Shown here piece after piece: positions 1,777 through 39,168 of a stretch of DNA of 64,000 nucleotides. Location: positions 434,001 through 498,000 of the forward strand of contig NZ_SWKN01000006.1 of assembly GCF_005871185.1 (NCBI RefSeq). The letters run 5' to 3'. A program made the position numbers and the translations under genes. Position 1 is the stretch's first letter. Each line of letters opens with the position of its first letter. The notes beneath the pieces are model-generated. The model saw only the letters and a program-made list of their open reading frames with translations. It was not told the DNA's origin and searched no databases. The stretch comes from Limnobacter alexandrii. GTDB taxonomy: Bacteria; Pseudomonadota; Gammaproteobacteria; Burkholderiales; Burkholderiaceae_B.

Positions 1777-1804
1777 TGTAATAATCACAAAGTATGTTAT
1801 TACA
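1777..1804. promoter_or_regulatory. Perfect 8-bp inverted repeat upstream of ovoA
   Basis: TGTAATAA, a 12-bp spacer, then TTATTACA form a perfect inverted repeat 36 bp upstream of the ovoA start codon. The size and spacing fit a dimeric transcription-factor operator or a site overlapping the promoter. The rest of 1551-1839 is AT-rich and shows no gene. Confidence 0.5.
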
Positions 1805-1839
1805 GTAACTCATCATCCAGTCACTTCAGGTTTGCGCTT

Positions 1840-3993
1840 ATGAACTCCCCTTTACGTAACATGCACACCCAGGGTGAACATTTCCTGCGCACGCCTTTTC
1901 TGGCGGGCAACGACATCGAATCCAAACGAGGTGAATTGCTGCAGTACTTTCACGCCAGCTTTGACCGATATGAATCGCTGTTCGAATTGCTGACCTGCGA
2001 CGAGGCCTATTACAAAAAGCCGATCAACCTGCGCCACCCGCTTATTTTTTACCTGGGCCACACGGCCACGTTCTTCATCAACAAGTTTTTGCTGGTGGGC
2101 CTGATCGACAAGCGAATCGATCCACGGCTGGAATCCATGTTCGCTGTGGGCGTGGATGAAATGAGCTGGGACGACCTGGACGACGCCCGCTACGATTGGC
2201 CCACAATCGAGGAAGTATGGGCCTATCGCAAAAAAGCACGTGAAGTAATCGATGACGTAATTCGCCATACGCCATTCACGCTTCCAATTGGCTGGAACGA
2301 CCCCTTCTGGGCCGTGATCATGGGCATTGAACACGAGCACATTCACCTTGAAACATCATCGGTGTTGATGCGTCAACATGCCCTGCACTTTGTGAAACAA
2401 CACCCAGCCTGGCAACCTTGCCGCACCACAGGTGCCGCGCCTGCCAACAGCCTGGTGAACATTCCTGCGGGCAAAGTGGTGTTAGGCCGATCAATTACCG
2501 AACCCATTTACGGTTGGGACAATGAATACGGCCACCATCAGGCCGATGTGCCCGAATTTCAAACTGCACGGCATTTGGTCAGCAACGGTGAGTTCCTCGA
2601 ATTTGTTAACGCAGGTGCTTACACGAATCCGACCTATTGGGATGAAGAAGGCTGCAGTTGGCAACAATTCTCCCAAGCAACGCACCCCACCTTTTGGGTG
2701 CGTGCGCCCCACGAGAAAGATGGCTGGGCGCTTCGCCTGTTGGCCGAAGAAGTGGCCATGCCCTGGGATTGGCCAGTGGAAACCAATTACCACGAAGCAC
2801 GTGCCTTTTGCCGCTGGAAAGCGGAGCAAACAAGCCAGCCCGTGCGCTTGCCCACAGAAGACGAGTGGAATCGCATTTACGACCATGCACAACTGGCTGA
2901 TGTGCCCAACAATTCAAAGGCCAAAGCCAACCTGCACCTGGATCACTGGGCCTCTAGTTGCCCGGTGAATCAGTTTGCACACGGCGAATTATTCGATGTG
3001 GTGGGCAATGTGTGGCAGTGGTGTGAAACCCCCACCTACCCCTTCGATGGTTTCGATGTACACCCGATCTACGACGACTTCACCAGCCCGACATTCGACA
3101 ACCACCACAACATCATCAAAGGCGGCAGCTGGATTTCATGCGGCAATGAAAGTCGCCATGCTTCTCGCTATGCATTCCGAAAGCACTTCTTTCAGCATGC
3201 TGGCTTCCGCTATGTGGTCACCGACACGCCAGCGGTTAATCCTTTGTCAACCTATGAAAACGACGCATTGGTATCGCAATACGCCGAATTTCACTTCGGT
3301 GAAACTGCCTTCGGTGTACCCAATTTTGCAAAAGCCATGGCCGACATGGCCATGGATGCACACCAACGCTTGGGCAATGGCAAGCAAGGCCGCGCACTTG
3401 ATTTGGGCTGTGCCACCGGGCGCTCAACCTTCGAGTTGGCGAGAATGTTCAACAAAGTGGTCGGGATTGATTTCTCAACGCTGTTGATTCAAGTTGGTGC
3501 GCGCCTGAAAGAAACCGGTACCGTTCGCTACACCTTGCCCGATGAAGGTGAGTTGTTGAACTACTACGAACGCCGGCTCGACACCCTGGCCCTTGCAGAC
3601 ACGGCCGAGCGCGTCGAGTTCTGGCAAGGCGATGCTTGTAATTTGAAGAATATTCACACTGGATTCGACCTGGTGCTGGCCGCCAATTTGATCGACCGTC
3701 TTTACGCCCCGCGCCGATTCCTTGCTGACATCGCAAATCGAATCAATTCAGGCGGACTTTTGGTGTTGGCCTCGCCCTATACCTGGATGGAGGAATACAC
3801 CAAACGCGAAGAATGGATCGGCGGGTTCAAGAAAGACGGTGAATCGTACGGCACACTTGATGGCCTGAAAGACATACTGGGCGAACACTTCACGTTGGTG
3901 CAAGGGCCACAGGCTGTGCCTTTCGTGATTCGGGAAACACGGCGCAAACACCAATACACGCTGAGTGAAATGACGGTGTGGAAGCGCAAATAA
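1840..3993 (+). CDS. ovoA: 5-histidylcysteine sulfoxide synthase / mercaptohistidine methyltransferase (OvoA)
   Basis: A 717-aa bifunctional enzyme of ovothiol biosynthesis. It joins cysteine to histidine C5 using O2 and non-haem iron, and its C-terminal domain N-methylates the thiol-histidine. The N-terminal DinB-like domain carries the iron-binding HX3HXE motif (H165, H169, E171). The central FGE-sulfatase domain runs to about residue 465 and shows the family signatures RLPTEDEWNR, GNVWQWCE and IKGGSWISC. The C-terminal class I methyltransferase begins near residue 515 with the SAM motif LDLGCATGRS. Full length matches two-domain OvoA rather than the EgtB-only form. The stop codon lies 3 bp before the truncated tRNA-Arg repeat, so this is the last backbone gene on the left. 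Confidence 0.93.
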   Translation: MNSPLRNMHTQGEHFLRTPFLAGNDIESKRGELLQYFHASFDRYESLFELLTCDEAYYKKPINLRHPLIFYLGHTATFFINKFLLVGLIDKRIDPRLESMFAVGVDEMSWDDLDDARYDWPTIEEVWAYRKKAREVIDDVIRHTPFTLPIGWNDPFWAVIMGIEHEHIHLETSSVLMRQHALHFVKQHPAWQPCRTTGAAPANSLVNIPAGKVVLGRSITEPIYGWDNEYGHHQADVPEFQTARHLVSNGEFLEFVNAGAYTNPTYWDEEGCSWQQFSQATHPTFWVRAPHEKDGWALRLLAEEVAMPWDWPVETNYHEARAFCRWKAEQTSQPVRLPTEDEWNRIYDHAQLADVPNNSKAKANLHLDHWASSCPVNQFAHGELFDVVGNVWQWCETPTYPFDGFDVHPIYDDFTSPTFDNHHNIIKGGSWISCGNESRHASRYAFRKHFFQHAGFRYVVTDTPAVNPLSTYENDALVSQYAEFHFGETAFGVPNFAKAMADMAMDAHQRLGNGKQGRALDLGCATGRSTFELARMFNKVVGIDFSTLLIQVGARLKETGTVRYTLPDEGELLNYYERRLDTLALADTAERVEFWQGDACNLKNIHTGFDLVLAANLIDRLYAPRRFLADIANRINSGGLLVLASPYTWMEEYTKREEWIGGFKKDGESYGTLDGLKDILGEHFTLVQGPQAVPFVIRETRRKHQYTLSEMTVWKRK

Positions 3994-3996
3994 GGG

Positions 3997-4034
3997 ATGG
4001 CGCGGCTGGCGGGGATCGAACCTTCGGAGGCCAA
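3997..4034 (-). repeat. attL: truncated tRNA-Arg 3' end (island left boundary)
   Basis: Positions 3997-4022 match 43082-43107 base for base (26 bp), that is the last 25 nt of tRNA-Arg including its CCA plus one downstream base. It continues as TTCGGAGGCCAA (4023-4034), which is the anticodon-loop part of the tRNA, but a 13-nt block present in the intact gene is missing between the two pieces. The two copies are in direct orientation, as expected for att sites of an element that enters a tRNA 3' end. No other part of a tRNA is present here, so it is a fragment and not a gene. Confidence 0.85.
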
Positions 4035-4279
4035 GGGGAAAAGATGTATCTCATACAACTTACATTCACTCTAAACGACGTTAATTCGCGCTTTTCAAGA
4101 CGATGTGCATTTCTATACTTTGTTGCTTTCACACACAAACTGTGAGATAACACCATTTAACGTCTCGGTACTATTTCGCTATTTTTGTGGTTTTTGGAGT
4201 CTCGGCCCACTTTGCGGCACATCCGTAGGCGACTGAATTTTGTTCGTCACAGACTTTTCAAAGTCACTGCGAGACCACA

Positions 4280-5083
4280 ATGAGCAGCAAAACCGACCAA
4301 ACCACACCCAGCTTATTCAGTGACTACATCGTCTATGTCGACGAAAGTGGTGACCATGGCATGCAAAATTTGGATCCAAACTATCCAATTTTCGTCCTTG
4401 CCTTTTGCATATTTCACAAAAGGCATTACGCCAATCGCGTTGTTTCCGCACTGCACCAATTCAAGTTCCAGCACTTCGGTCATGACTTGGTTGTACTACA
4501 TGAACACGACATCAGAAAAGAAAAAGGCGCATTCACCTTCAAAAGCAAGCTGCAAAAAACCAAATTCCTGGACGAACTGAGTCAACTAATCAAAACCCAC
4601 AACTTTATTCTGGCTAGTTGTGTCATCGACAAATCAAAACTCAAAGGCTCGCCTGACCAAAACGAGAACCCCTATCATTTAGCACTAGGCTTTTGTTTGG
4701 AAACACTCTATGAGTTCCTGCAGGAGAAGAGTCAGCACAAGCAACTCACCCACGTAGTCTTTGAATGTCGAGGTAAAAAAGAAGACGACGAGTTAGAGCT
4801 TGAGTTTCGTCGGATGACCGATGGAGCAAATCGCGTTGGAATCAACTTCCCTTTTGAGATTATTTTTGCGGATAAAAAGGTGGATTCCCCTGGCCTGCAA
4901 CTGGCTGACCTCGTCGCTAGGCCGATTGGCCTTAACATTCTGCGCCCCGATCAACCAAACAGTGCTTTTGAAATCTTGAAGGAGAAGTTTTATTGCTCTG
5001 GAGGTCGAAAAAACGTCGGGCAAGGATATGAAAATTGGGGCTTAAAAGTTTATCCGCCCCAAAAAAGCGAAAAGCCCCGATGA
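4280..5083 (+). CDS. DUF3800 domain protein
   Basis: A 267-aa soluble protein. The N-terminus YIVYVDESGDHG is the diagnostic DES(G)D motif of DUF3800, and the C-terminal ADKKVDSPGLQLADLVA carries the second conserved acidic/Q-L-A-D block. These acidic residues suggest an RNase H-like metal site, but the biochemical activity of the family is not settled. It is the first gene of a four-gene run. Its stop overlaps the next small reading frame in an ATGA (5080-5083), a sign of translational coupling. The region from 4035 to 4279 upstream holds no gene, only a repeated GTCTCGG motif. DUF3800 genes are common in mobile and defence islands, which fits the place next to attL. Confidence 0.8.
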   Translation: MSSKTDQTTPSLFSDYIVYVDESGDHGMQNLDPNYPIFVLAFCIFHKRHYANRVVSALHQFKFQHFGHDLVVLHEHDIRKEKGAFTFKSKLQKTKFLDELSQLIKTHNFILASCVIDKSKLKGSPDQNENPYHLALGFCLETLYEFLQEKSQHKQLTHVVFECRGKKEDDELELEFRRMTDGANRVGINFPFEIIFADKKVDSPGLQLADLVARPIGLNILRPDQPNSAFEILKEKFYCSGGRKNVGQGYENWGLKVYPPQKSEKPR

Positions 5084-5229
5084 AACCCACCGAGGCTATA
5101 GCGCCGACCGGGAGCCCCCAATCCACTTGCTCGAAGTGTAAGCGATATAGCTTGTTCAAATCAAGTCTTCTCGGTGCAATCGTAACGATATTTGCAACGA
5201 TGTTGTCAAGCTGGGACACCGCCATATGA
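5080..5229 (+). CDS. Small 49-aa CxxC / single-span membrane peptide (overlapping start and stop)
   Basis: A short reading frame of 49 residues that shares an ATGA overlap with the gene before it (5080-5083) and a second ATGA overlap with the gene after it (5226-5229). Such overlaps on both sides are hard to explain by chance and point to a coupled, translated gene. The peptide has a polar N-terminal half with a CSKC pair (possible metal or redox site), a basic patch, and a hydrophobic stretch LLGAIVTIFATMLSSW near the C-terminus that could span the membrane. I recognise no family. It could also be only a leader that couples translation of the giant downstream gene. Confidence 0.55.
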   Translation: MKPTEAIAPTGSPQSTCSKCKRYSLFKSSLLGAIVTIFATMLSSWDTAI

Positions 5230-8200
5230 AAAATATCCCCAACTGGAATCCAAATCTAATCCAAGACTGTGGCCAGTTTGAGGATGCGCTTGCAGCGGTA
5301 ACCGACAAAATAGACCTTCCCGCTCACTTTGTAACCAATTTAAGACGAAGCTGGGCAATCGGGGAAGATCTACGTCTTCATAACGGGCTACGTAATCATA
5401 AGGTTGAGTCGGAAATTACTATCCCTTTTGCGGGAGGGGGCTTTCTCCATTACTGCCTTGGCTGGCTATGCACTACGCACTACAGGGAAACTTTACAAGC
5501 ATGGTCGCACCAAGATGATTTCTACAGAAACCTCCACCATCTGATCCATATAATCCGAAGCTACGATGCTTACGGAGCATGTGATCAGCAATTACAAACT
5601 ATCAATACAAAACGACCGATTTTCAGAGCTCAGCAAATTTCACGCGGTGAATACCCAATTGTTGAGCTGCTTTTTCAAAGTTGGCAGCAGCATCCCAATT
5701 TCGGCTATACACAAACCGCTTTGCTAATATTAAAGCAGTTGTTTGAATGCTATTGTTTCACCCATGGAAGCGTGATATTTCGCATGCCCCATCTTAAATT
5801 TCTCAATGAGATACGCCAAACTTTTGCGCCAGTAAACGAAAACCAAAACCGTGATTTTCTGATCCATCTGTTTCAACGCTTCGACAAGCCATCGAAAAGT
5901 GAAAAAGTATTCAAGGAAAAGTTAGAAACTGAACTTCGTCTATCGAGATCAACGACTGTTCTTCCAAACGATAACGAAACGAAATATCAGAGGAATATTC
6001 AGAAGAGTTTCTTGAATTTCTTTTCTCCGTCTGAAAAACCTGTTCTTTACTTTGGTCCAGACTCTCTTTCAGGGATCCAGTCTTTGAAATTGAACAGGTA
6101 CAAAATAAACGATGATGATGGCAAGGAAGTCCGGAGGTTAAAAGCGCTTTTTAAACAGAACTTCAGTAATGCGCAACCAGACGACCACACTGGTTCAAAC
6201 ATTGACGGTCATACCAAGGGACAACAAAACAACAATCAGGACGCCCCTGAGCTAGAGGCAAAAGCCATTGGGCAAGTACTGCTTGATTTCAACCTTTCGA
6301 CCTATTTCCCGACCAACCCACACTTGCCGCTTCAGGCTGAACATATCAGTGCCTACGCAACTTTGGAGGCGGGCAACACCAGCGAAATCACCAATGACAC
6401 TTTAGCAGACGTGTTAATTTGGATCGGATATCAAATCGGTGCCAACCTTGAAGGTGCGCTAGCACTCAGAGTCCATCATCTGCCAGAACCGGAGTTTGGA
6501 TTCATGGAGGATTTTTCCGCGATATGGAGACTTCGTCCATCACTTCAACATATCGGCAAAACGACTTTTCTTCATTCAGCTCTTTTGCCGTCCGAAAGGA
6601 TAGAGCGGAGATCTCTACCCACCAAACTCCAAAACTTTCTAAAGGACCAATGGAATATTCAAACCCATGAGAGCCTCTACGACCTGGCGATTGATAGAAA
6701 GTTCGATCCTGAGAAAATTGATCAGGTAAAAGTACATTTCGGGTTTGAATCGAATGCCTGGCTGCAAAGCAGCCGACGACTGATGCTCCTTGCACAAGGG
6801 CATCCAGAATCGGCAGCAATGTTGATACAAAAAAACGCTCGATCAGAGCTTCCTTCGAAATGCGCCTACTATTCCGTAATCCACAAAGAGAAAAACGTCG
6901 CGGGCTCCCCTTACGCTTTTGATCTTGAGAAATTTAGAGCCGATGTAGCTATCATGGTTAGCCAATTAAAGCATGCCATAAACAGCAAATCACTTTGCAT
7001 GTCTTGGAATGCTTGGGTTACCTACTTGATCTTCCGGATCTATCTAACAACGGGCGGGCGACCCGTTAAAGATGCATATTGCGATCTTGATTTATTCACA
7101 GACACTTTTGATCTCACGATTGTTGATGACAAAGATGTTTTACTAAGGGAGCCAAGACGTGTGGTACCACTTTGTAAATCGCTCGCTGATGAAATTGGCA
7201 TCTCCTATCGAAATGCTCTTAAACGCCTCGCCAATCTACTTCGAACCAACACGCCTAAGCTTTCGAAACAAATCGAATCGCTTCTCGTCACGCCAAGCCT
7301 TTCAAACACTCAAGGTATCCCATTTTTCTTTTTCCTGACAGAAAACGGTATTGAAGGTATTTCTGCGGATATAACACTCCTTGAAAATTTCGATACCTTA
7401 CAGGCCAATTTCTTGCGTCACTTTGTCAGTAACCACTGCGAGATCACCGATAGAGACATTGTGGATGGACTATTAGGCCATGAAAACGACAAGATTCCAG
7501 TTTACGGCGCATCAAGCCTAAGAACAATGAATAAGGATCACCAACGAGTTCGTGACTTTGCAGATAGGATCTTAAAGTTCCTAAATATTAGTGAATCCAT
7601 TGATTTTGAATTCAGTAGCAAAGACGTTGATGTGTGGGGGCAGTCGATACCCAAACGCTTTGGCTTGCAATTGCGAAGGACTGAACATAAAGCATTACAC
7701 AAGTCAGTTTCAGCGAGGGCCTACCAAGATGCGGAATCAATTATTGAAGGCTTGCGACCTGAACAGAAAGCACAAGATCGAATTGACAAAGCACTCAAAC
7801 AAGCCCAATTGGAGCTAAGCAACCGGATTCATTTTGATATCTATTTTTACAAGTTCACTCGGTTTCTTCGAAAGTTAGCACCAGGCCTTGACATGAAATT
7901 CTTCTCGCGTGTTGGCCGTACCGTCAACGAGAGAGTGCCAATCGACTTTTGTCGAAAATATTCGGAATACCGGGCGTCTCACCCAGGCATCATGGAGATC
8001 CTCCAATCCAACACCCAGGCGAAACAAAAGGTCAATCTTGAATTTCTGTTCGCACTCTCTTTAATCAAGCTAAATGGCATTACCTGTAAAATAGCAATTC
8101 AGCAGGTTCTAAAAGGAAATTACCTGCTTGGAACAGTATCCGATAAAACATTTATTGACATTCATTTTGTCGATACGCAGCCCCATCCGCTCACTCCGGT

Positions 8201-10661
8201 CAGACGGCACGAGCTTCATCGCCTGTCAATTCACTATTATGAACGGCTGGTCAATCAACTAAGCTTTCGCCAGAGCAGCAATAATTTGGAAAAACTAGGG
8301 CGTGACCTGCAGGCTAAAATAAATCGCCTCGGAGTCAGTGGATCATCGCTTAACACCAAAAAAGACCTACTTTATTATTTCGCTGAAATTGAGCAATCCT
8401 ACCAACTATACGAATTACCCGGTTGTTTGTCCGCGATTGCCTCAGGCGACACCAAGCATCGCAGCTCAAATTATCTAAGCTTTCAACAACTCACTGATCC
8501 TGACACAGATCACGTGGCAAGTAACGCTCGACTAGCGCCCGCAACTAAGTATCTCTCGCATGAAGTTATAGCGACCGATGCGATTGCATATCCCGATCCC
8601 GGTAACAAAGACCCTAATCCATCCCAAGCGACCGCTACAAGCTCATTTGTTAGCGCTACAGGACTCGAAATTAAGGATAACTTTTCTGGGGGCACCCATG
8701 ACCAAGCCATCGAGGAGAGCTCCACCTCGGACACTTTAACTGACTTCCATGAACAAGGGCTATTGTGTAAATCTGTCGCAAGCCATATTGAAGCAATCAT
8801 GGATGACGCCCTTGGCGCGATGCTAAGACTAAGTACAGAAATTGCAGCGAGACCCTCTCTGTGTAAATCGGCACTTTTAAGCTATGCCAAAGATATAGAG
8901 AGTAGAAGACCCTCTGGACGAAAAAGTTTGGCTAAAAGCACCAAGCTCAATTACTACGGAAGAATTGGGAATCTTTTTAAAGAGACCAACCTCGAGCAGG
9001 AAATCGATGATGAACAACTCGATGAGGCAATTGAAACCATTAACGGCTACCTACTGGACAGACAACAGATCCTGCAATCTGCTAAAGACGATCTGCGTCA
9101 AATTAGGGACCTATTCTCCAAACTAGCAGAACTGAATCCTTTGATGTCCGTGAAGTTCGACAGTATTGGTGCGGTTTATAACCCAGCCACACATCTCTTT
9201 TCTCAGAAAGAACTAAATCTGATCTTTAAAAAAATTCAAGAAACCCAGCCCGAAGCGGTTCAAGCAATTTTTGTTCTTCTTCGTCGTTTTGGTCTGAGGA
9301 AAACTGAGTCTCTCTTTCTAAAGCCCGTCAATCTGCAGCTTCTAGATACTACCCCGCTGCTCAGGGTGGTGGGCGATTCTGTTTTTAGACCCAAATTTCC
9401 TGCTTCCAATCGCTATGTGTTATCTCAAACTAAAATTACAAGTGAGGAGAAAGGGATCCTTCAAAGAATAAAGCACCGAGCAATCACAGCGAAAGCAAGT
9501 TACCTTGGCGATTTGATTCAGTCCTCTGCGCGCGAGATTAGTTTGCGTCTAAACCAAATCATTCGAAATGTTACTTTCAGAGGGAGTATTCACACCCTGC
9601 GACATACCTTTGCTGACGAGCTGACATATGGACTTTTTGAGAGTGCAATTTGCTGCAATCCTGACAATCCGTTAACCGGCGAAAGATTGATTCATACAAC
9701 ACCCGAAAACGTGAATCGCAAAACACTATTTGTCGCGAGCAGAATTCTCGGGCATGCAGGAACAACCACGCTACTAGAAACCTATTCACATCGCGGGTTT
9801 GAGGTTATCGACTCCTTGTACAACAGTCAATTTTGTGAAGGCGCGCTCGGGAACACTGATACTCAAAGCGAAAGTTTCGCCTTCTCATTGGCTTCAAGAT
9901 ACGGCCTTAAAGGTTCAGCTCATCAACTCGATGAGTCAATAAATCTGCGTACTTTTAACGTCAAAGACTACATTCTCGGATCACTTGATTACCTCAACCA
10001 ATCTAGCAATACGATAAATCCTTGTTCCACTGCCAACCCGAAAATCGCAAGCCGGCTCTATCATCTTGAAAATATATTTAGATCATTTCCGCCTAACCTA
10101 CGCCCTGCCCGCTTCGCTCACACGAAAACGAACGGCATTTTCCTGAGCCGAGCCTTCTACGAACGCCTTGAAAAACAATTACCTGATAATGCAGATACTG
10201 CTGACTTGATTCACCGAGTGCAGGCAACACCTGCAAAAACATCAGAAATATTGGCTCTTAAACGAATTCCATTTGAACTCAACTCTAACTTTGATCCACT
10301 CGGTAACTTCACTGAGGATGCTCATTATGTGATCCGCGAATCGATGAAAGAAAAGGATCTTGTGAATCTCATCCACATTTTAGACCTGCTTCAGTTCCTC
10401 GGATTCGACTCCAAAGATTTGTTCTTTTGGTCAAATTCTTACAGTCAAAAATGCGATATTCGGAATGTCTTGACAGATCTTGGACTGAGCACTCGATTCA
10501 GCTTATCAGTTGGTCCTGTGCGTCAAACAGTCAAGTTCAATATTGATCTAGAGACAGTGTGGGTCATTGGTGTCAAACGTCAAAAGAAAGACGTGCCTTT
10601 TTCGAATACCGAATTTTTCTGGATTGGATTGATTGTACATCTGTTAGCAGGAGGCTACTAA
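5226..10661 (+). CDS. Giant protein with two tyrosine-recombinase-like domains
   Basis: An 1811-aa protein. The C-terminal recombinase domain (about residues 1220-1540) has a full catalytic set: R1358 (FGLRKTES), H1456-x-x-R1459 (HTLRHTF), H1510 (ILGH) and Y1520 (ETYSH), preceded by a core-binding-like helical region. A second, more diverged domain lies at about 560-800: R612 (TTGGRPVKD), R731 (NFLRHF, with N728 replacing the usual His), H752 (LLGH) and Y760 (VYGAS). The first 550 residues and the last 250 match nothing I know. Known tyrosine recombinases are 300-500 aa, so the size and tandem layout are exceptional. GC is lower than in the backbone. The start ATG overlaps the previous stop, and its TAA abuts the next ATG. 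It may move DNA or act as a defence or regulatory recombinase. Confidence 0.8.
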   Translation: MKNIPNWNPNLIQDCGQFEDALAAVTDKIDLPAHFVTNLRRSWAIGEDLRLHNGLRNHKVESEITIPFAGGGFLHYCLGWLCTTHYRETLQAWSHQDDFYRNLHHLIHIIRSYDAYGACDQQLQTINTKRPIFRAQQISRGEYPIVELLFQSWQQHPNFGYTQTALLILKQLFECYCFTHGSVIFRMPHLKFLNEIRQTFAPVNENQNRDFLIHLFQRFDKPSKSEKVFKEKLETELRLSRSTTVLPNDNETKYQRNIQKSFLNFFSPSEKPVLYFGPDSLSGIQSLKLNRYKINDDDGKEVRRLKALFKQNFSNAQPDDHTGSNIDGHTKGQQNNNQDAPELEAKAIGQVLLDFNLSTYFPTNPHLPLQAEHISAYATLEAGNTSEITNDTLADVLIWIGYQIGANLEGALALRVHHLPEPEFGFMEDFSAIWRLRPSLQHIGKTTFLHSALLPSERIERRSLPTKLQNFLKDQWNIQTHESLYDLAIDRKFDPEKIDQVKVHFGFESNAWLQSSRRLMLLAQGHPESAAMLIQKNARSELPSKCAYYSVIHKEKNVAGSPYAFDLEKFRADVAIMVSQLKHAINSKSLCMSWNAWVTYLIFRIYLTTGGRPVKDAYCDLDLFTDTFDLTIVDDKDVLLREPRRVVPLCKSLADEIGISYRNALKRLANLLRTNTPKLSKQIESLLVTPSLSNTQGIPFFFFLTENGIEGISADITLLENFDTLQANFLRHFVSNHCEITDRDIVDGLLGHENDKIPVYGASSLRTMNKDHQRVRDFADRILKFLNISESIDFEFSSKDVDVWGQSIPKRFGLQLRRTEHKALHKSVSARAYQDAESIIEGLRPEQKAQDRIDKALKQAQLELSNRIHFDIYFYKFTRFLRKLAPGLDMKFFSRVGRTVNERVPIDFCRKYSEYRASHPGIMEILQSNTQAKQKVNLEFLFALSLIKLNGITCKIAIQQVLKGNYLLGTVSDKTFIDIHFVDTQPHPLTPVRRHELHRLSIHYYERLVNQLSFRQSSNNLEKLGRDLQAKINRLGVSGSSLNTKKDLLYYFAEIEQSYQLYELPGCLSAIASGDTKHRSSNYLSFQQLTDPDTDHVASNARLAPATKYLSHEVIATDAIAYPDPGNKDPNPSQATATSSFVSATGLEIKDNFSGGTHDQAIEESSTSDTLTDFHEQGLLCKSVASHIEAIMDDALGAMLRLSTEIAARPSLCKSALLSYAKDIESRRPSGRKSLAKSTKLNYYGRIGNLFKETNLEQEIDDEQLDEAIETINGYLLDRQQILQSAKDDLRQIRDLFSKLAELNPLMSVKFDSIGAVYNPATHLFSQKELNLIFKKIQETQPEAVQAIFVLLRRFGLRKTESLFLKPVNLQLLDTTPLLRVVGDSVFRPKFPASNRYVLSQTKITSEEKGILQRIKHRAITAKASYLGDLIQSSAREISLRLNQIIRNVTFRGSIHTLRHTFADELTYGLFESAICCNPDNPLTGERLIHTTPENVNRKTLFVASRILGHAGTTTLLETYSHRGFEVIDSLYNSQFCEGALGNTDTQSESFAFSLASRYGLKGSAHQLDESINLRTFNVKDYILGSLDYLNQSSNTINPCSTANPKIASRLYHLENIFRSFPPNLRPARFAHTKTNGIFLSRAFYERLEKQLPDNADTADLIHRVQATPAKTSEILALKRIPFELNSNFDPLGNFTEDAHYVIRESMKEKDLVNLIHILDLLQFLGFDSKDLFFWSNSYSQKCDIRNVLTDLGLSTRFSLSVGPVRQTVKFNIDLETVWVIGVKRQKKDVPFSNTEFFWIGLIVHLLAGGY

Positions 10662-11585
10662 ATGACTTTCTATGTAGTTCATAAACTTAAGGTGAAAAAT
10701 CCGCAATCACTAACAGAGGGCCAGGTATCTGAAAGTGCTAGATTATTCAAAACTACAAAAGCAAATCTTTTCCACAGAATTGCAGCCACTTACAGAGATC
10801 AAATTGATAGGTCAATTGAAGTCGGCGACTTGGTTAGTGACTCAGAAAGTGAACTCCGTTATTGGCAACTCGTCTTTGACATTTCATCGACAAAAGAAAA
10901 TGAGGAAGCAATTTTCGAACGGCTGGATTGGATTGATAATCACATCGTCGATATCGTATCAAGCCTGCAAGGTGTCGTGTTCGAACCGAAGCTCAATAGC
11001 ATTCACCGTGTAGGTAAGGACGACAACTCTAAACTTGATCATTTAGCCAAGGAACTAATCACACAGCAGGTTCACGAATTTGTTGTCGAACGTCTTGTCG
11101 AACACAACCAAATCAAGCTGACTAAGTTTTCTGGCTTGGGCCCAAACTCCGACGTTACAATACACCTCGCAGAACAAGTTAGCGGACTCCAGGACACGAC
11201 TCGCATTTATAAATTTAAAGGTCGAATCACAAGTTATGATATGAGTCAAAAAACAATCAAGGCATTGCGTAGTGAATCTTCAGATTATCAATCCAAAGAA
11301 CAGGAACAGCCACTAGATATCAAATTTAACAAAGATGTTGGCCCTGACGATTTATCAGATGAGCGAATGGAAACAACTCGTTCTGGAACTAATCTACAGG
11401 CAATGCGAAAACCGCGCGAAGAGACTTTTTACATTAATCCAAGTGACTTCGTGAATGTCGATCATCAGGCCAAATACATGCCGTGGGAAAGAAGATTTAA
11501 TATGGAAATCGAGTTCCACTATCAGATGCTGGAAAGTCGCAAACAGATATGCCTCAGAATGGACGATGCCTATATGGGCCTGTAA
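10662..11585 (+). CDS. Unrecognised protein, last gene of the tandem-recombinase operon
   Basis: A 307-aa protein without a family I recognise. Its ATG follows the TAA of the giant recombinase directly (TAAATG), so it is surely co-translated with it. It has no signal peptide or membrane span. The N-terminal two-thirds are predicted mixed alpha/beta with long charged helices (about residues 60-140), followed by a low-complexity acidic stretch (about 205-245) and a C-terminal block FYINPSDFVNVDHQAKYMPW. Constant association with the recombinase suggests a partner or accessory factor, which is inference only. No clear terminator is seen in 11586-11669. Confidence 0.75.
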   Translation: MTFYVVHKLKVKNPQSLTEGQVSESARLFKTTKANLFHRIAATYRDQIDRSIEVGDLVSDSESELRYWQLVFDISSTKENEEAIFERLDWIDNHIVDIVSSLQGVVFEPKLNSIHRVGKDDNSKLDHLAKELITQQVHEFVVERLVEHNQIKLTKFSGLGPNSDVTIHLAEQVSGLQDTTRIYKFKGRITSYDMSQKTIKALRSESSDYQSKEQEQPLDIKFNKDVGPDDLSDERMETTRSGTNLQAMRKPREETFYINPSDFVNVDHQAKYMPWERRFNMEIEFHYQMLESRKQICLRMDDAYMGL

Positions 11586-11669
11586 ATAAATTTGTGTAAG
11601 TGCATTCGGCCAATTAACCTCTTTCGAGGAAATGGACGAATTCACCAGAATACGCACTTGTGGTGATGT

Positions 11670-14025: not shown

Positions 14026-14682
14026 ATGGTTCAAAAACCGCCCATACCCGATAGTAAACTGGATGATCAGGGCAATGTTTTGTCAAATGCAGCACGACTT
14101 TTTCGCGAAAAGGGATTTGAGAAAACCTCACTTAAGGAAATCGCTGAAGCTTGCAATATGCTGCCAGGCAGCCTTTATTATCGATACAACACCAAGGAGG
14201 CACTTCTTGTTGAACTGATGCGCCGTGGAATTTACCTGGTAACAGAAGAGGTAGAATTGGCCTATGCCAGTTCGAATGACCCAGTCGAGAAGTTGCGTCT
14301 TTGCATCAATGCACATCTTCGAGCTCTGCTGGGTGATTCCGACATGGTCTATGTGCTGCTGTTTGAATGGCGAGCCTTGAGTCCAGAGGCACGGAAGGAA
14401 ATCATAAAACTGCGTGACCAGTACGAGTCTCTTTGGATAGATATTCTCGAAACAATGATCAGCCAGAGAGTTATTCAGAAAGACGTGGATAGTCGTCTTC
14501 TTCGACTGATTGGCCTTGGTGCCCTCAACTGGGTTGCAACATGGTTTGATCCAAATGGCTCCCATACACCGAACGACATTGGCAATTTCGTCTGGCAAGC
14601 TATTATCAAAGGTTTGATCAATCAAAATGCTCAGGGCGAACACTTGCACCGGTTAAAGCAGCTCAATCAACCGTTGATTTAG
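14026..14682 (+). CDS. TetR/AcrR-family regulator
   Basis: A 218-aa TetR regulator. The N-terminal HTH is clear: AARLFREKGFEKTSLKEIAE, then ACNMLPGSLYYRYNTKEALL, which matches the family's GxxxxxLYxxFxxKexLl recognition helix. The C-terminal ligand domain (about residues 75-200) is helical and rather large in aromatic residues, similar to regulators that sense fatty acyl compounds, but the ligand is unknown. ATG at 14026 follows an AGGAG. It is divergent from the thioesterase/hydrolase run and most likely represses it through the palindrome at 13882. Confidence 0.88.
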   Translation: MVQKPPIPDSKLDDQGNVLSNAARLFREKGFEKTSLKEIAEACNMLPGSLYYRYNTKEALLVELMRRGIYLVTEEVELAYASSNDPVEKLRLCINAHLRALLGDSDMVYVLLFEWRALSPEARKEIIKLRDQYESLWIDILETMISQRVIQKDVDSRLLRLIGLGALNWVATWFDPNGSHTPNDIGNFVWQAIIKGLINQNAQGEHLHRLKQLNQPLI

Positions 14683-14690
14683 ATCATAAA

Positions 14691-15749
14691 TCAACTAAAT
14701 TGCATAGCCTGAGGTTTGGTATTTAGCCTGAACGTCTCTGGCGGTTGGTCAAACCAGCGCTTAAAAGCACGCCTGAAGTTGGCACTATCATGATAGTTCA
14801 TCAACACAGCGATGTTCTCAATGGATAACCTGCTGTCGCACAGGTAGCTTGCAGCCTGTTGAGACATAATCTCATCTCGGATTTGCCGGAATCCGGTGTT
14901 TTCCTCTTTGAGTTTACGTGCCATGGTGCGCTTGCTCATGAATAGAGAAGCTGCCGCTTCATCTTCATTAAGGGTTCCGGGCGGACGGGACAACATCATC
15001 TTTTTAATTCTCGTCTGATAGCTAGGTTTGTGAGTCTGAAGTTGCGCGAGCATGGATTCACACTGCTGCAGAGCAAAGCGATAGCTTTCATGATTGGCAG
15101 AGGCGTTCGGCTCCAGACACAACGCCATCGGCAACCTGAGTTTTAAATGATCGCAATTAAAGAGAATCTGCCCCGACAAATAGTCGGAGTACAGCGCATG
15201 GTACTCGGGTGCCTGATGGGGGAAAAATATTTCAGCCTCATTTAGAGGTCGACCAATAATGAATTCACCAAACTCCAGAAGAACTTTAATTATCGTATCT
15301 GCCATGCAACGCTGTATGTCAGCATCAAGCGACATCCGAAAATGCAGTGTGCATTCGAGGTGAGTTTCAACTTGCTGCAAATTTAATTCAATGACGCTTA
15401 CCCGCGTTGGCAGAAATATATGTATAGCCTGTAGCGCACTGAGTAAATTTGGGCTGCTTGAAGCGGCAAACCCCATAGCACCATGCGTCGCCGGCGTGAG
15501 GCGCTTGCCCAACATTAAACCAAATTCGGGCTGGCCAGACAACACCAACGCATTTCGCAAAATCAGAACTTGTTGAGTTGCCGAGAGCAAGCCATCCTCC
15601 CTCAGAAACTGTCTAACTCCGAGTCCCGTTCCACGTAACAGAACTGGTAGCTGTCTAGCCGTCAGATCCAGCTCACGGGCAATAAGTCGTGAGTAATTTG
15701 ATGGGATATCGGCTGTAAGGTTTTGGGAAATATTCGCTTGCCGCGTCAT
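14691..15749 (-). CDS. AraC-family regulator beside the CYP153 operon
   Basis: A 352-aa activator with an N-terminal Arabinose_bd (AraC_binding_2-like) ligand domain (about residues 15-210) and a C-terminal double HTH. The HTH blocks are AAASLFMSKRTMARKLKEEN and IENIAVLMNYHDSANFRRAF. This architecture is frequent next to CYP153 and AlkB genes. ATG at 15749 is chosen because AGGTGG lies five bases upstream; a GTG at 15758 is the longer option. It is divergent from the ferredoxin-CYP153 operon, and paired GAAATGACC repeats lie in between. Confidence 0.88.
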   Translation of the reverse strand: MTRQANISQNLTADIPSNYSRLIARELDLTARQLPVLLRGTGLGVRQFLREDGLLSATQQVLILRNALVLSGQPEFGLMLGKRLTPATHGAMGFAASSSPNLLSALQAIHIFLPTRVSVIELNLQQVETHLECTLHFRMSLDADIQRCMADTIIKVLLEFGEFIIGRPLNEAEIFFPHQAPEYHALYSDYLSGQILFNCDHLKLRLPMALCLEPNASANHESYRFALQQCESMLAQLQTHKPSYQTRIKKMMLSRPPGTLNEDEAAASLFMSKRTMARKLKEENTGFRQIRDEIMSQQAASYLCDSRLSIENIAVLMNYHDSANFRRAFKRWFDQPPETFRLNTKPQAMQFS

Positions 15750-15789
15750 CAGCGCCACCTATCAAGGATGAGAATAACTGCATTGTCTT

Positions 15790-15864
15790 GAAATGACCCG
15801 GTGCCGTCAAGAAATGACCTCGCCGTTGTGTTGACGGCAATTTACTATCACTAGCGATGATAGT
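15790..15864. promoter_or_regulatory. AraC-type operator and inverted repeats before the CYP153 operon
   Basis: Three features are packed into 75 bp. GAAATGACC occurs at 15790-15798 and again at 15811-15819, exactly 21 bp apart, as expected for tandem AraC half-sites on one face of the helix. TGCCGTCAA (15802-15810) pairs with TTGACGGCA (15831-15839). ACTATCA (15844-15850) pairs with TGATAGT (15858-15864) close to the ferredoxin start. A similar AAAATGACCCC appears at 19096-19106 before the alkB fusion. Confidence 0.6.
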
Positions 15865-15883
15865 TACTAGTAGGAGAAACGCA

Positions 15884-16204
15884 GTGGGCAAAATCATTTT
15901 TATTGAGCATAACAATACAACTCACGTTATCGAATTCAAGGCTGGATCATCATTGATGCAAATCGCAGTCGATAACGCCATTCCAGGAATCGATGGGGAC
16001 TGTGGCGGGGAATGCGCCTGTGGCACTTGTCACATCATAGTCGCAGATGAATGGTTCGAAAAGATCGGTTCATTCGGTGATGGGGAAGAGCAGATGCTAT
16101 CGATGACGCCAGAGCGGGCAAAAACCTCACGTTTGGGCTGCCAAGTTAAAACCACTGAAGCGATGGACGGCATGACCGTTCGACTCCCAGAATTTCAGAT
16201 GTAA
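15884..16204 (+). CDS. [2Fe-2S] ferredoxin of the CYP153 system
   Basis: A 106-aa putidaredoxin-type ferredoxin. The cluster motif is DCGGECACGTCH (Cys spacing C-x5-C-x2-C) with the fourth Cys in RLGCQV. It passes electrons from the reductase encoded at 17765 to the P450 encoded 15 bp downstream. The GTG at 15884 is chosen as start because AGGAG lies eight bases before it; an upstream ATG at 15857 would place that ribosome site inside the gene. Confidence 0.92.
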   Translation: MGKIIFIEHNNTTHVIEFKAGSSLMQIAVDNAIPGIDGDCGGECACGTCHIIVADEWFEKIGSFGDGEEQMLSMTPERAKTSRLGCQVKTTEAMDGMTVRLPEFQM

Positions 16205-16219
16205 ATATCGGAGAGCCCC

Positions 16220-17632
16220 ATGTCAACACAATCCAAAACATTTGACCAAATTCAGACCAGAGTGATTAATGCCACCGCCAAGGTGATACCAATGCATTTG
16301 CAAATTCAGGGTCTGAAATTTTTGATGCGTGCCAAAAAGAAAACAATTGGCGCGCGCAGGCCCACGCCAAGCTTTGTTGAATACCCGCTGCCAGACGTAG
16401 GTACACTACGAATTGATGACATTGACGTGAGCAATCCGTTTTTGTACAGGCAAGGGCAATGGCGGGCCTATTTCAAGAGACTGCGTGATGAAGCCCCGGT
16501 GCACTTCCAGAAAAACAGTCCATTCGGTCCGTTCTGGTCGGTGACTCGCTATGAGGACATCCTGTTCGTCGATAAACACCATGACCTGTTTTCCGCCGAG
16601 CCGGTCATCATCCTTGGCGATCCCCCTGAAGGCCTCTCGGTGGAAATGTTCATCGCCATGGATCCACCAAAACACGATGCACAGCGGAGCTCCGTGCAAG
16701 GCGTAGTGGCTCCTCAGAACCTGAAAGAAATGGAGAGCCTAATCCGGTCTCGCACAGGGGATGTGCTCGACAGTCTTCCCGTGGGCCAACCCTTTGACTG
16801 GGTACCAACGGTATCAAAGGAGCTAACCGGACGCATGCTGGCCACGCTTTTGGATTTCCCTTACGACGAACGTGACAAACTAATTTACTGGTCAGACCTT
16901 TTAGCTGGTGCCGCATCAGCCACCGGTGGCGAGTTCACCGACGAGGAGGCCATGTTCGACGCTGCCGCCGACATGGCCCGCGATTTTTCACGACTTTGGC
17001 GAGATAAGCAGGCACGCCGCGCCGCAGGTGAGGCGCCAGGCTTTGATTTGATCAGCTTGTTGCAAAGCAGTGAGGATACTCGTGACTTGATTAACCGTCC
17101 GATGGAGTTTATTGGCAATCTGGCACTACTCATCGTCGGTGGTAATGACACTACCCGCAACTCCATGAGTGGAGGCTTACTAGCCATGAACCAGTTTCCG
17201 AAAGAGTTCAAGAAGCTCAAAGCAAACCCTGCGCTAATTCCAAACATGGTGTCGGAAATCATCCGCTGGCAAACACCTTTGGCCTATATGCGCCGAATCG
17301 CCAAGCAAGACGTTGAGCTTGGGGGACGGACTATCAAAAAAGGTGATCGAGTAGTGATGTGGTATGCATCGGGAAATCGGGACGAGCGCAAGTTTACGGA
17401 TCCGGATCAATTCCTCATCGACCGTTCTGGCGCACGTAACCACCTGTCGTTCGGCTATGGCGTTCACCGATGCATGGGCAACCGTCTGGCCGAACTACAA
17501 CTGCGTATCCTGTGGGAGGAATTACTCAAGCGCTTTGAAAACATAGAAGTTGTTGGTGAGCCCGAACGAGTGCAGTCGAACTTCGTGCGTGGCTATTCGG
17601 AGATGATGGTTAAATTGACCCCACTGCGATAA
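16220..17632 (+). CDS. Cytochrome P450, CYP153 family (terminal alkane hydroxylase)
   Basis: A 470-aa soluble P450. The haem-ligand loop is FGYGVHRCMGNRLAE with C418; the I-helix is LIVGGNDTTRNSMSGG; the K-helix ExxR is in MVSEIIRW. The block FIAMDPPKHDAQR and the C-terminal region are typical of CYP153A enzymes, which hydroxylate medium-chain n-alkanes and related compounds at the terminal carbon. It sits between its ferredoxin and ferredoxin reductase genes, the usual CYP153 operon order. Confidence 0.93.
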   Translation: MSTQSKTFDQIQTRVINATAKVIPMHLQIQGLKFLMRAKKKTIGARRPTPSFVEYPLPDVGTLRIDDIDVSNPFLYRQGQWRAYFKRLRDEAPVHFQKNSPFGPFWSVTRYEDILFVDKHHDLFSAEPVIILGDPPEGLSVEMFIAMDPPKHDAQRSSVQGVVAPQNLKEMESLIRSRTGDVLDSLPVGQPFDWVPTVSKELTGRMLATLLDFPYDERDKLIYWSDLLAGAASATGGEFTDEEAMFDAAADMARDFSRLWRDKQARRAAGEAPGFDLISLLQSSEDTRDLINRPMEFIGNLALLIVGGNDTTRNSMSGGLLAMNQFPKEFKKLKANPALIPNMVSEIIRWQTPLAYMRRIAKQDVELGGRTIKKGDRVVMWYASGNRDERKFTDPDQFLIDRSGARNHLSFGYGVHRCMGNRLAELQLRILWEELLKRFENIEVVGEPERVQSNFVRGYSEMMVKLTPLR

Positions 17633-17764
17633 TCTCTTTGACGCAGAATACAAGTTAATTCCTTTACAAGCAAACAGAGACGCCCGACCGCTGTTAGGGG
17701 GGCGCAATCATAATATTGTCCAGCTGGATAATCCGGTCTCAATAACGTGTTGGAGAGGGCGCTC

Positions 17765-18997
17765 ATGACAACGAAAGAAAAAGAGACGACAGTTGTCGTT
17801 GGAGGTGGGCATGCAGCAGGCGCGCTACTGACCACATTAATCCAGAAAAAATACCCGCATAATATAGTACTGGTAGGAGATGAGCCCTACCCCCCATACC
17901 AGCGCCCACCTCTGTCGAAGAATTACCTGGCGGGTAGTGTTGACCGAGAGTCGCTGTACTTGAAACCATCGTCGGTATACGAGAACGCGGGCCACCAGCT
18001 TAAACTTGGCGTGCGCGTTGAGCAGATAAATCGGAGCAATAAAACCATTCTCTTGTCTGATCAGAGCACTCTGACATACGATCGACTCGTCCTGGCCACT
18101 GGGTCACGGGTGCGACGTCTGAAAGTACCCGGCGCGGACTTGAAGGGAATTCATTATCTGCACGATATCGCCGACACCGATGTCCTGCGTGATCAACTAA
18201 ATCCGGGTAAACGGCTGGTGATCGTTGGTGGCGGCTACATCGGCCTAGAAGTGGCAGCAATCGCCATCAAGGCAGGCCTAGTCGTCACTGTGCTCGAATC
18301 CTCAGAACGCCTATTGCAACGTGTCACAGGACCAGAGATCTCAGAGTTCTTTTATTCAAAGCACCGCAGCGCGGGAGTGGATGTGCGGTTGACCACCACG
18401 GCTACCGAATTCGCAACTGACGGTCTCGGTCATGTGACTGGCGTAGTAGTGGCGAACGGGAATACCTTGCCAGCCGATATTGTGCTCGTCTCTGTAGGAG
18501 TAGTACCAGAAACCAAACTGGCAGAGTCCGCTGGACTGGCTTGTGATGACGGTATTTTAGTGGATGAACATACCCGCAGCAATGATCCCTCCATCCTGGC
18601 TATCGGCGACTGTACCCGCCACCGAAATCTTTTTTTCAAACAAATGCAACGGGTCGAATCGGTCGCCAACGCTGTCGAACAAGCCCGTACAGCGGCGGCT
18701 ACCCTGATGGGAGAGGACAAACCGTACCACCACGTCCCATGGTTCTGGTCGAATCAATATGACCTTCGCCTGCAAATGGTGGGATTGTCACAGAACCATG
18801 ATGAACGCGTCGTTCGCCGCGACATCGAGGGTGATGCATTTGCGGTTTTCTATATCAGGGAAGGTCGTCTAATTGCTGTTGACGCAGTCAACATGCCATT
18901 GGCTTTTATGGTCGGTAAGCGGCTCGTTTACGAGGGTAAGGACGTCAGTGCCGAGAAGTTGAGAGATCTGAACATCGCGTTAACTTCTTTAATCTGA
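17765..18997 (+). CDS. NAD(P)H-ferredoxin reductase of the CYP153 system
   Basis: A 410-aa FAD enzyme of the putidaredoxin reductase type. It has two dinucleotide-binding motifs: VVVGGGHAAGALLTTL for FAD at the N-terminus and VIVGGGYIGLEVAAIAIKAG for NAD(P)H near residue 150, plus DPSILAIGDCTRH of the FAD-binding second part. It supplies electrons to the ferredoxin at 15884. The start is ATG at 17765, with GGAGAG just upstream; a TTG at 17747 is less likely. The 130-bp gap to the CYP153 gene shows no terminator. Confidence 0.92.
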   Translation: MTTKEKETTVVVGGGHAAGALLTTLIQKKYPHNIVLVGDEPYPPYQRPPLSKNYLAGSVDRESLYLKPSSVYENAGHQLKLGVRVEQINRSNKTILLSDQSTLTYDRLVLATGSRVRRLKVPGADLKGIHYLHDIADTDVLRDQLNPGKRLVIVGGGYIGLEVAAIAIKAGLVVTVLESSERLLQRVTGPEISEFFYSKHRSAGVDVRLTTTATEFATDGLGHVTGVVVANGNTLPADIVLVSVGVVPETKLAESAGLACDDGILVDEHTRSNDPSILAIGDCTRHRNLFFKQMQRVESVANAVEQARTAAATLMGEDKPYHHVPWFWSNQYDLRLQMVGLSQNHDERVVRRDIEGDAFAVFYIREGRLIAVDAVNMPLAFMVGKRLVYEGKDVSAEKLRDLNIALTSLI

Positions 18998-19174
18998 AGT
19001 ATGTAAGAGTTAGCTTCCTTCAAAGGTAAATCAAACGACTACTGCATAAGATTGGCGGAAAAAGACCCCTTTTTGTCCGACGCACCTCTTTGCAGAAAAT
19101 GACCCCCTCCGCATAATAATTCTCATTTGGTCTATCGCCATTTCTCACATTATAAAAATCACTTGGAGGCGGAC

Positions 19175-21445: not shown

Positions 21446-21478
21446 GAGAAGCAACTAATTCTTAGTTTGGAGATTATT

Positions 21479-23149
21479 ATGGAATTCGATTTTGTAATCG
21501 TGGGTGGAGGCTCATCCGGAGCAACTCTGGCAGCGCGCTTGAGCGAAGATTCGTCAGTAACAGTGTGCCTTCTTGAAGCTGGTGGTCGTGGAGACAATTC
21601 CTTGATTCGAACACCTGCTGCAATGGTTGCGATGGTTCCCGGGCACGGAAAACTGAACAACTGGGCTTTTAATACAGTGCCTCAGCCCGGTTTAAACGGG
21701 CGTATTGGCTATCAGCCTCGCGGCAAGGCGCTGGGGGGTTCTTCAGCGATTAATGCCATGTTATACATCCGAGGACAAAGACAGGATTACGATGGCTGGG
21801 CAAACCTGGGTTGTGATGGTTGGGACTGGGACAGTGTATTGCCTTACTTTAAAGATGCCGAAAACAACGAGCGAGGTGCTGATCCATTTCACGGGGCCAG
21901 CGGACCACTTCATGTGTCGGATCAGAACAGCCCACGACCGGTGACTCGCGCGTTTGTTGAAGCAGCAAAAGCCTGGGGACTACCAGAGCAGCAAGACTTC
22001 AATACCGGTGACAATGAGGGTACCGGGCTATACCAGGTAACACAATTTCATGACCCGAATAAGCACGGTGAACGTTGCTCAGCGGCCGCCGCTTACCTTC
22101 ATCCCATAATGACCGAGCGTTCAAACCTAACGGTGCTTACAAACGCTCATGCCTGTCGCATTCTTTTGGAGAATCAGCGTGCAAAGGGTGTTTTTTATCG
22201 CCACAGCGGCAAGGAGTTTCTAGTTAAAGCCCGTCGCGAGGTGATCGTCTCTGCTGGTGCTTTTGGCTCCCCTCAACTCTTACAGTTATCCGGTGTTGGT
22301 AGACCACAAGACATCACCCCCTATGGCATTAGCATGGTGCACGAGTTAGCAGGTGTCGGGCAGAACATGCAGGATCATCTGGATTTCACACTGGCATTCA
22401 AATCCCTTGATACTGACAACTTTGGATTGGGTTTGGCAGGCGCGCTGGGATTATTCAAGCACCTTACTTCGTGGCGTCGAAATGGCACCGGTATGCTGTC
22501 CTCGCCTTTTGCGGAAGGAGCTGCATTTCTGAAATCATCGAAGTCAATTGATCGTGCAGATTTACAATTGCACTTTGTAATTTCTATAGTGGAGGACCAC
22601 GCGCGCAAACTACATTCAGGCTACGGCTTTTCTTGCCATGTGTGCGCGCTTCGTCCCTATTCTCGAGGAGAAGTTTTCTTGCAATCTGCGGATCCTTTGG
22701 ATGATCCAGGGATCGATCCAAAGTTCCTATCGGATCACAGGGATCTGGAAACTTTGATCAAGGGAGCAAAAATCACCCGTGAAATTTTGATGCAAAAACC
22801 ATTAGAGAACTACCGACATAAAGAACTTTTCGACGTGCATGAAGGCATGAGCGATTCTCAGTGGGAATCAAAAATACGCGCTAGAGCCGACACCATCTAT
22901 CACCCTGTAGGAACTTGCAAAATGGGAACCGACACAATGTCGGTTGTGGATGCGCAACTACGTGTGCATGGGCTGCAGGGACTAAGAGTGGTAGACGCGA
23001 GCGTGATGCCCACCTTGGTTTCTGGCAATACAAATGCACCCTCAATCATGATTGCCGAAAAAGCGGCTGATATGATCCTCGGTAAGAATCGAATCACCAA
23101 AACAAGTACAAGCCCTCAGATTAATGAGAAGGAGATGAGTCATGTCTGA
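21479..23149 (+). CDS. GMC-family alcohol dehydrogenase (AlkJ-like)
   Basis: A 556-aa FAD-dependent dehydrogenase. [20 protein letters not shown] is the FAD-binding start, [18 protein letters not shown] is the first GMC signature and [15 protein letters not shown] the second. The catalytic His is in [10 protein letters not shown] and the C-terminal asparagine in [19 protein letters not shown]. Between AlkB and aldehyde dehydrogenase genes it most likely oxidises 1-alkanols at the membrane, feeding electrons to quinone, as AlkJ does. The start is ATG 21479 with GGAG upstream. The last 8 bp overlap the aldehyde dehydrogenase gene. Confidence 0.9.
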
Positions 23150-25929: not shown

Positions 25930-26010
25930 GAAGTCTGTCAACTTATCTGAACTCTTTTTGATTTGTAAAGCTAACATTTTAAGCAACAAGTTGCGGAGAC
26001 TTCATTTTTG

Positions 26011-27042: not shown

Positions 27043-27057
27043 GTCGATGCCTGCCCT

Positions 27058-28545: not shown

Positions 28546-28689
28546 GTTATATCCGTCGGGAAATGAGGTCGTATTGCATTTCACTGAGTGCAAGACATAA
28601 ACCAGCTTTTCTATATCGCCAACAAGCGGCAGTCTCAAGATGCTTACAGAGACTGATTTGAGTGGCTTGGGTGGTTGAGACCAGGAGAT

Positions 28690-28726
28690 AAAAAGGCCGA
28701 TATGATCCTTTCTCGTCACATATCGG
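28690..28726 (-). terminator. Rho-independent terminator after the periplasmic binding-protein gene
   Basis: On the minus strand CCGATATG (28726-28719) and CATATCGG (28704-28697) form an 8-bp stem with a 14-nt loop, followed by CC and five T (28694-28690). It lies 12 bp past the binding-protein stop codon, so transcription of that gene may end here before the FadL gene. Confidence 0.75.
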
Positions 28727-28738
28727 ACTGGTCAACTA

Positions 28739-29797: not shown

Positions 29798-29861
29798 CGT
29801 TATTGTCTCCATATGGTTTTAATATTTCATTTGATTATTACATTGGTAAAAACATATACTC

Positions 29862-29897: not shown

Positions 29898-29899
29898 AA

Positions 29900-38724: not shown

Positions 38725-38730
38725 AAAGCC

Positions 38731-39153: not shown

Positions 39154-39168
39154 ATTCCTCTCCTTGAC

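Follow-up and report, generated by a model that had tools for sequence, protein, structure and literature searches.

A tightly packed group of four genes in the genome of the bacterium Limnobacter alexandrii raises the question of what its largest product, a protein of 1811 amino acids, does and why it is encoded where it is. The group lies within a stretch of 64,000 nucleotides that was analyzed at its full length (the window, to which coordinates refer unless another locus or contig is named). An earlier note on this DNA described four tightly joined genes, for a DUF3800 protein, a small CxxC peptide, a tandem tyrosine recombinase and an unknown protein, and suggested that they could be a self-mobilizing unit, a DNA-rearranging defence system or a regulator of island excision. 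The coordinates of the open reading frames bear out the tight packing: all four read in the same direction on the plus strand, span 4280–11585, and meet at the junctions ATGA (genes 1 and 2), ATGA (genes 2 and 3) and TAAATG (genes 3 and 4). Gene 1 (4280–5083, plus strand) encodes 267 amino acids with a match to PF12686 (E 1.5e-20), so its assignment to DUF3800 stands. Gene 2 (5080–5229, plus strand), a frame of 49 amino acids with a CxxC motif, is doubtful as a protein gene. Motif alignment and profile searches point to a twin tyrosine recombinase of 1811 amino acids as the product of gene 3 (5226–10661, plus strand), and gene 4 (10662–11585, plus strand) encodes 307 amino acids without a known family. 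Pfam searches gave no match for genes 3 and 4, and in NCBIfam gene 3 has just a weak XerC match (E 0.03), far below cut-off. A search at E 1 of NCBIfam, which we take to contain models for the Gamma-Mobile-Trio proteins GmtX, GmtY and GmtZ, returned no match of those names for any of the four proteins. The predicted model of gene 4, built from an alignment of three rows only, has a pLDDT of 42.3.

Within the genus, genes 1, 3 and 4 are co-present in the same 6 of 16 Limnobacter genomes, the present one counted, and a search among 60 relatives located gene 3 in those six only. Gene 2 is present in all five versions of the module that were compared. Across the 49 codons, dN does not fall clearly below dS, and the most distant copy (genome G014) lacks conservation of the C-terminal half. 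Gene 2 may therefore be a leader, or it may not be a gene, and this is the part of the original description that is in doubt.

The borders of the surrounding DNA indicate that the four-gene module does not stand alone: it forms the left end of a genomic island targeted to a tRNA. The island measures 39,111 bp (3997–43107) and is bounded by a 26-bp direct repeat of the 3′ end of tRNA-Arg(CCG). The left copy of the repeat (3997–4022, minus strand) is the displaced tRNA 3′ end, and a 13-nt piece matching tRNA nucleotides 27–39 extends this fragment to 4034. The right copy (43082–43107, minus strand) overlaps the 3′ end of the intact tRNA-Arg(CCG) gene (43083–43158, minus strand), the target of insertion. 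A comparison of the ends of homologous loci by BLAST, a check proposed in the earlier note, gave an identical left border, at window position 3997/3998, in 5/5 module-bearing relatives. Furthermore, the module lies directly inside the displaced tRNA fragment in all six Limnobacter islands, the present one included. The tRNA repeat at both ends is accompanied by a phage-type integrase inside the island and by an empty site in a relative: in genome G003, window positions 1787–4022 adjoin 43080 onward, the overlap being the repeat itself, and the right flank is matched in pieces up to 46682. A similar empty site is present in G007. A link to island mobility is upheld by this position next to an att end; the self-mobilizing unit gives way to a module that is one end of a tRNA-Arg island whose other half carries an arm-type integrase.

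The island appears to have been mobile in the recent past. Compared with Limnobacter MED105 (G006), there are 3 mismatches over 3997–43186, as against 144 and 193 mismatches in the 1-kb bins that begin at 43000 and 44000, and the left flanks of the island are unlike between genomes. Because the divergence from MED105 jumps at the border, the left flanks differ and G003 has an empty site, the 39-kb island has evidently moved between Limnobacter species very recently. A more distant relative, the island of G014, has a gene 3 that is 61% identical. Its att end is the same, its cargo differs for the most part, and its tRNA is about 40 kb from the module on the same contig. A non-coding block in the left end (4121–4185), containing the motif CACA-N5-TGTG, is largely unchanged in G014. 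Exchange between islands is also seen. At one locus in G005 (L017), genes 3 and 4 do not differ from those of the window, and the first 1.2 kb, comprising the att end and genes 1 and 2, match the version in G001; on this pattern the att end has evidently been exchanged between islands.

The DNA between the two ends contains several further features. The cargo at 14026–30928 includes a P450, a ferredoxin and reductase, a desaturase, a GMC oxidoreductase, a FadL-type porin and AraC regulators, which suggests degradation of a hydrophobic compound. Between the integrase and the tRNA are genes for a Lit-like peptidase (37795–38739), a 420-aa protein and an OLD/AriA-like ATPase (40598–42556), and this region (37795–42556) looks like a defence patch. 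A 51-bp dispersed repeat (42610–42660) has copies of 84–88% identity to the left of the G001 att site and to the left of the G007 tRNA. Just after gene 4, 55–57 bp within 11578–11634 match G004 at 98–100% in six listed places, three of which are no more than 10 bp from a contig end; the segment is probably an insertion-sequence end that has remained behind the module. The match to G001 stops at window position 11566, about 20 nt before the stop codon of gene 4, and the 4.9 kb beyond gene 4 in that genome, up to the contig end, has no match to the window. The match to G012 breaks at 11564; about 1.9 kb of other DNA follows before it continues at 11656. A switch of cargo after gene 4 in several islands was considered and rejected: G012 has an insertion difference (about 1.9 kb versus 91 bp) with shared cargo beyond it, and the switch holds for G001 only.

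The claim in the earlier note that the 1811-aa protein joins a complete recombinase domain to a diverged one agrees with the alignments, in which the C-terminal domain is the complete one. This domain, YR2 (residues 1202–1551; 8829–9878, plus strand), has the full catalytic set R1358, K1390, H1456, R1459, H1510 and Y1520. In an alignment of 17 rows, four of which are Limnobacter module copies, R1358, K1390, R1459, H1510 and Y1520 occur in 17/17 rows and H1456 in 16/17. PF00589 (Phage_integrase) scored above cut-off in YR2 in four of five gene 3 relatives scanned (E 1e-6 to 2e-15), with E 6e-4 in the fifth, and YR2 aligned with arm integrases at an hhalign probability of 94.7. The other domain, YR1 (residues 545–800; 6858–7625, plus strand), is a putative degenerate catalytic domain recognizable by motif positions only: R612, K636, N728 in place of the first His, R731, H752 and Y760. 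Across the same alignment, R612 and K636 occur in all 16 rows that have that stretch and R731 and H752 in all 17; the first His is present in none (Asn stands there in 16), and the nucleophile Tyr is found in 6/17, in a column that depends on the alignment. A YR1 profile gave no significant match to YR2, to the arm integrases or to proteins of strand-biased circularizing integrative elements (SEs), and an AlphaFold model of the YR1 fragment, made from three rows only, has a pLDDT of 33.5, too low for use. It is for its conserved motif positions that YR1 is judged to be a recombinase domain.

Taken as a whole, the sequence comparisons assign the 1811-aa protein to a family of twin tyrosine recombinases that is deeply diverged and in which the two halves are either fused or split into two genes. 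The gene 3 profile found members in 5 of the 398 genomes searched across the phylum, and a broader twin profile in 11 of the 399 searched in the order, which we take to be Burkholderiales; the present genome is counted in both. Fused proteins of about 1800–1870 aa occur in G303, G038, G655, G636 and G537. Split genes are seen in G166 (821 + 1075 aa), G785 (862 + 1059 aa) and G608 (863 + 1023 aa), and on contig C32 of G655 the split is at a different break (775 + 1320 aa). Truncated copies are present in G369 and G704, and MED105 carries a second twin copy that is 22% identical. Searches of plasmids and phages at E 0.001 returned no gene 3 relatives, nor did one scan of viral contigs. Searches of open-licence literature, a scope outside which most subscription journals lie, gave no description of the family among the titles and abstract openings listed; the twin recombinases, and their pairing with an integrase at the opposite end of an island, appear to be undescribed.

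The neighbours of the twin genes in other genera are unrelated genes. A gene 4 profile matched none of the open reading frames across nine twin loci outside Limnobacter, and BLAST of gene 4 against chosen neighbours in five more gave nothing significant (best 0.11); no DUF3800 gene was seen among the Pfam-scanned neighbours of twin loci outside the genus. Since gene 4 and DUF3800 were not found at these loci, the twin recombinase looks to be the only shared core beyond Limnobacter. Co-occurrence of the partners, which the earlier note had asked about, is therefore confirmed within the genus, by the 6 of 16 genomes, and fails outside it: homologues standing without these partners, named there as evidence against a four-gene system, are what the loci tested contain. 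The module is more aptly seen as the form taken in Limnobacter by one terminus of a broader class of tRNA islands, which have recombinases towards both ends.

The recombinase towards the other end of the island is an arm-type tyrosine integrase (34852–36306, minus strand; PF12167 and PF00589), referred to here as the proximal recombinase. Directly downstream of it are genes for a 383-aa protein without a known family (33698–34849, minus strand) and an AAA ATPase (32250–33701, minus strand), and the islands of G012 and G014 contain matches to parts of this block. Between the integrase and the tRNA, a pattern search revealed five GGGCACA repeats within 78 bp (42913–42990), which are candidate arm sites for the integrase. 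Since the whole window contains 14 copies of this heptamer against 11.8 expected by chance, it is the cluster that counts. No such repeats were found at the left end of the island. The repeat is also GGGCACA in G001 and G014, and it is GGTCACA in G012 and G013. Among seven gaps between tRNA and integrase in other genera, repeats of the GGGCACA type are found in two (six copies in G785 and four in G650), and the other five have no clear repeat.

A search of 399 genomes of the order, apparently the same draw as in the twin search, at E 1e-80 and with up to three candidates scored per genome, identified the subfamily of this integrase in 19. It is present in 10 of the 11 twin genomes versus 9 of the 388 others (Fisher p 4e-14; 7.6e-13 without the present genome), values that are inflated by shared ancestry, because 7 of the 9 integrase-positive, twin-less genomes are in families that also hold a twin genome. 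The one twin genome that lacks the integrase, G704, has only a short, weak twin match. At two distant loci, arm integrases lie close to the twin genes, at 0.5 kb (L093) and 2.5 kb (L123). Within Limnobacter, a search at E 1e-20 gave no integrase match in G001 and G005, both of which are drafts with islands that run off their contigs, and the draft genome G013 has part of the integrase near the tRNA with no module detected.

The geometry of the Limnobacter island is repeated in some other lineages. The surroundings of the integrase were examined for 16 of the 17 copies in other twin genomes. An intact tRNA lies at 0.7–5.1 kb from eight of these 16 copies, all in other genera: tRNA-Arg(CCG) in G608, G636, G663 and G650, tRNA-Met in G785 and G038, and tRNA-Pro(CGG) in G608 and G663. 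The other eight have no intact tRNA within the stretch examined, some of them being near contig ends; two of the eight, at L137 and L147, have tRNA fragments only. For the opposite end, a search for displaced 3′ pieces of tRNAs covered 14 twin loci other than the Limnobacter module, and five of them have such a fragment. These are G537 (a 50-nt alignment with a 7-nt gap, 4.4 kb away), G369 (31 nt, adjoining the truncated twin copy), contig C6 of G636 (18 nt, 98 bp away), G166 (593 bp away, with no second copy found by exact pattern) and, weakly, G038 (12–13 nt, 7.4 kb away). Wherever a fragment is present, with the window counted and one case weak, it is upstream of the twin gene and on the opposite strand (6/6). 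No fragment was seen at the remaining nine loci (L022, L092, L095, L117, L119, L120, L121, L122 and L124), of which L095 and L117 have contig ends less than 0.3 kb upstream, and L022, L092, L119 and L120 were scanned with a T-arm pattern only; none was seen at the short G650 locus.

Two further observations concern individual loci. Displaced tRNA-Arg and tRNA-Pro fragments occur at L137 (7273–7321) and L147 (10188–10235), together with an integrase of the subfamily and with no twin detected; these are possibly islands without the distal half. Loci L118, L135 and L136 (G038, contig C1, 1350000–1439999) seemingly comprise two islands in tandem at a tRNA-Met cluster, each with its own arm integrase, and the second has the start of a twin recombinase only.

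Comparison with known systems shows that the island itself is of an ordinary type. It shares with tRNA-targeted integrase islands and ICEs the repeat of a tRNA 3′ end, an arm-type integrase, variable cargo and empty sites, and it differs from them in having a second, twin recombinase at the opposite end. The closest kinds are GInts and SEs. The report on GInts (ginABCD; Bardaji 2017, PMC5385486) describes a left-end operon that reads inward, transfer between species, several tyrosine recombinases, one of which (GinC) is without one catalytic residue, and a small fourth protein, all of which resemble the present module. Furthermore, the G001 match ends at the last stop codon, as in the rule given there for ginD. 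In contrast, GInts as described have three separate integrase genes and imperfect repeats of 10–17 nt at protein genes (PMC5385486), whereas here there is one giant fused recombinase, a DUF3800 gene comes first, and the repeat is an exact 26 bp of tRNA; the word tRNA is absent from the main text of that paper. What also sets the present case apart from GInts as described is the additional recombinase towards the opposite end.

The second kind, SEs (intA-tfp-intB-srap), resembles the present arrangement in having two live recombinases, one dead protein of recombinase fold and an auxiliary protein (PMC10214605, PMC9345347). SEs are described with terminal inverted repeats of 13–19 bp and a 6-bp spacer in attS (PMC10214605, PMC9345347); the ends here form a direct repeat of a tRNA. 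IntA, Tfp, IntB and Srap of SE-6945, the only SE compared and represented by single sequences, gave nothing significant against the twin family, the best being Srap (E 0.011, 2.5 bits). RIT and Tn554 elements likewise have several recombinases per element but, as summarized in PMC10214605, these are encoded by separate small genes (315–410 aa in RIT); both are set apart by description.

These findings lead us to propose, with a probability of about 60%, that a tRNA-targeted island has its recombination machinery in two halves, of which the module is the distal one, and that the two lie on either side of attP when the island is excised as a circle. The map suggests how such a circle would be arranged. 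On one side of the 26-bp attP would be the GGGCACA arm sites and the arm-type integrase, and on the other the DUF3800, twin recombinase and gene 4 set, with integrase and module alike transcribed away from attP. Integration at the 3′ end of tRNA-Arg would restore the tRNA and pull the two halves apart, one to each end of the island. The integrase and an active YR2 would catalyze strand exchange, and YR1 may be a catalytically dead partner in DNA binding or assembly (a scaffold), like GinC in GInts and Tfp in SEs. That integrase and module would act together, possibly in one complex, is inferred from their co-occurrence and from analogy with these two systems: GInts require all four gin genes (PMC5385486), and SEs encode the dead recombinase-fold protein Tfp in an operon with two live recombinases (PMC10214605). 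More tentatively, such islands may be a class of integrative element in which the recombination machine is a single locus around attP only while the island is a circle; the integrase, the active recombinase and its fused dead twin may form a heteromeric complex, and the separation of the halves could itself be a switch between the circular and integrated states.

An alternative account is that the arm-type integrase alone moves the island and that the twin recombinase controls direction, stabilizes the island end or keeps another island from entering the same tRNA. The nine of 399 genomes that have the integrase with no twin detected would fit this, as would the draft G013, with part of the integrase by the tRNA and no module detected, and the restriction of arm-like repeats in the window to the integrase end. 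A pure regulator would, however, have no need of a catalytic center, and YR2 keeps its nucleophile in 17/17 rows and the full catalytic set in 16; we regard this account as unlikely.

It is improbable that the twin recombinase is a passenger, or a separate mobile element, that persists at island ends by chance. Such an origin would be compatible with the unrelated neighbours in other genera and with the 9/14 other twin loci at which no tRNA fragment was detected, but it sits poorly with the co-occurrence of twin and integrase subfamily, and with an orientation to the fragment that is constant wherever one is present (6/6, one weak). About as improbable is integration of the island by the module on its own, in the manner of ginABCD, with the conventional integrase as the leftover of a nested element. 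The module is beside the left att in all six Limnobacter islands, G001 and G005 have no integrase match, and the G001 match stops close to the end of gene 4, as described for ginD (PMC5385486). Set against this, G001 and G005 are fragmented, the junction rule comes from one island, and subfamily integrases are near tRNAs at 8/16 copies in other genera. An origin of the att site through the module only was not adopted, since the subfamily integrases are near tRNAs independently. A defence system that rearranges DNA is very improbable: the Lit-like and OLD/AriA-like genes are in the same island but at least 26 kb from a module that is tied to the att end, and PADLOC (E 0.01) gave no match for genes 1, 3 and 4.

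The reading of the module as the distal half of an island's recombination machinery has wider relevance for this family of proteins. It concerns a protein of 1811 amino acids that has no name above cut-off in Pfam and NCBIfam, and whose relatives in at least four other genera stand beside displaced fragments of tRNAs. The twin family could serve as a marker for the island end that is usually difficult to locate. Beside GInts and SEs, these elements would add another lineage of islands in which one dead recombinase domain accompanies two live ones, and the twin family allows the reason for keeping a dead partner to be tested directly by genetics.
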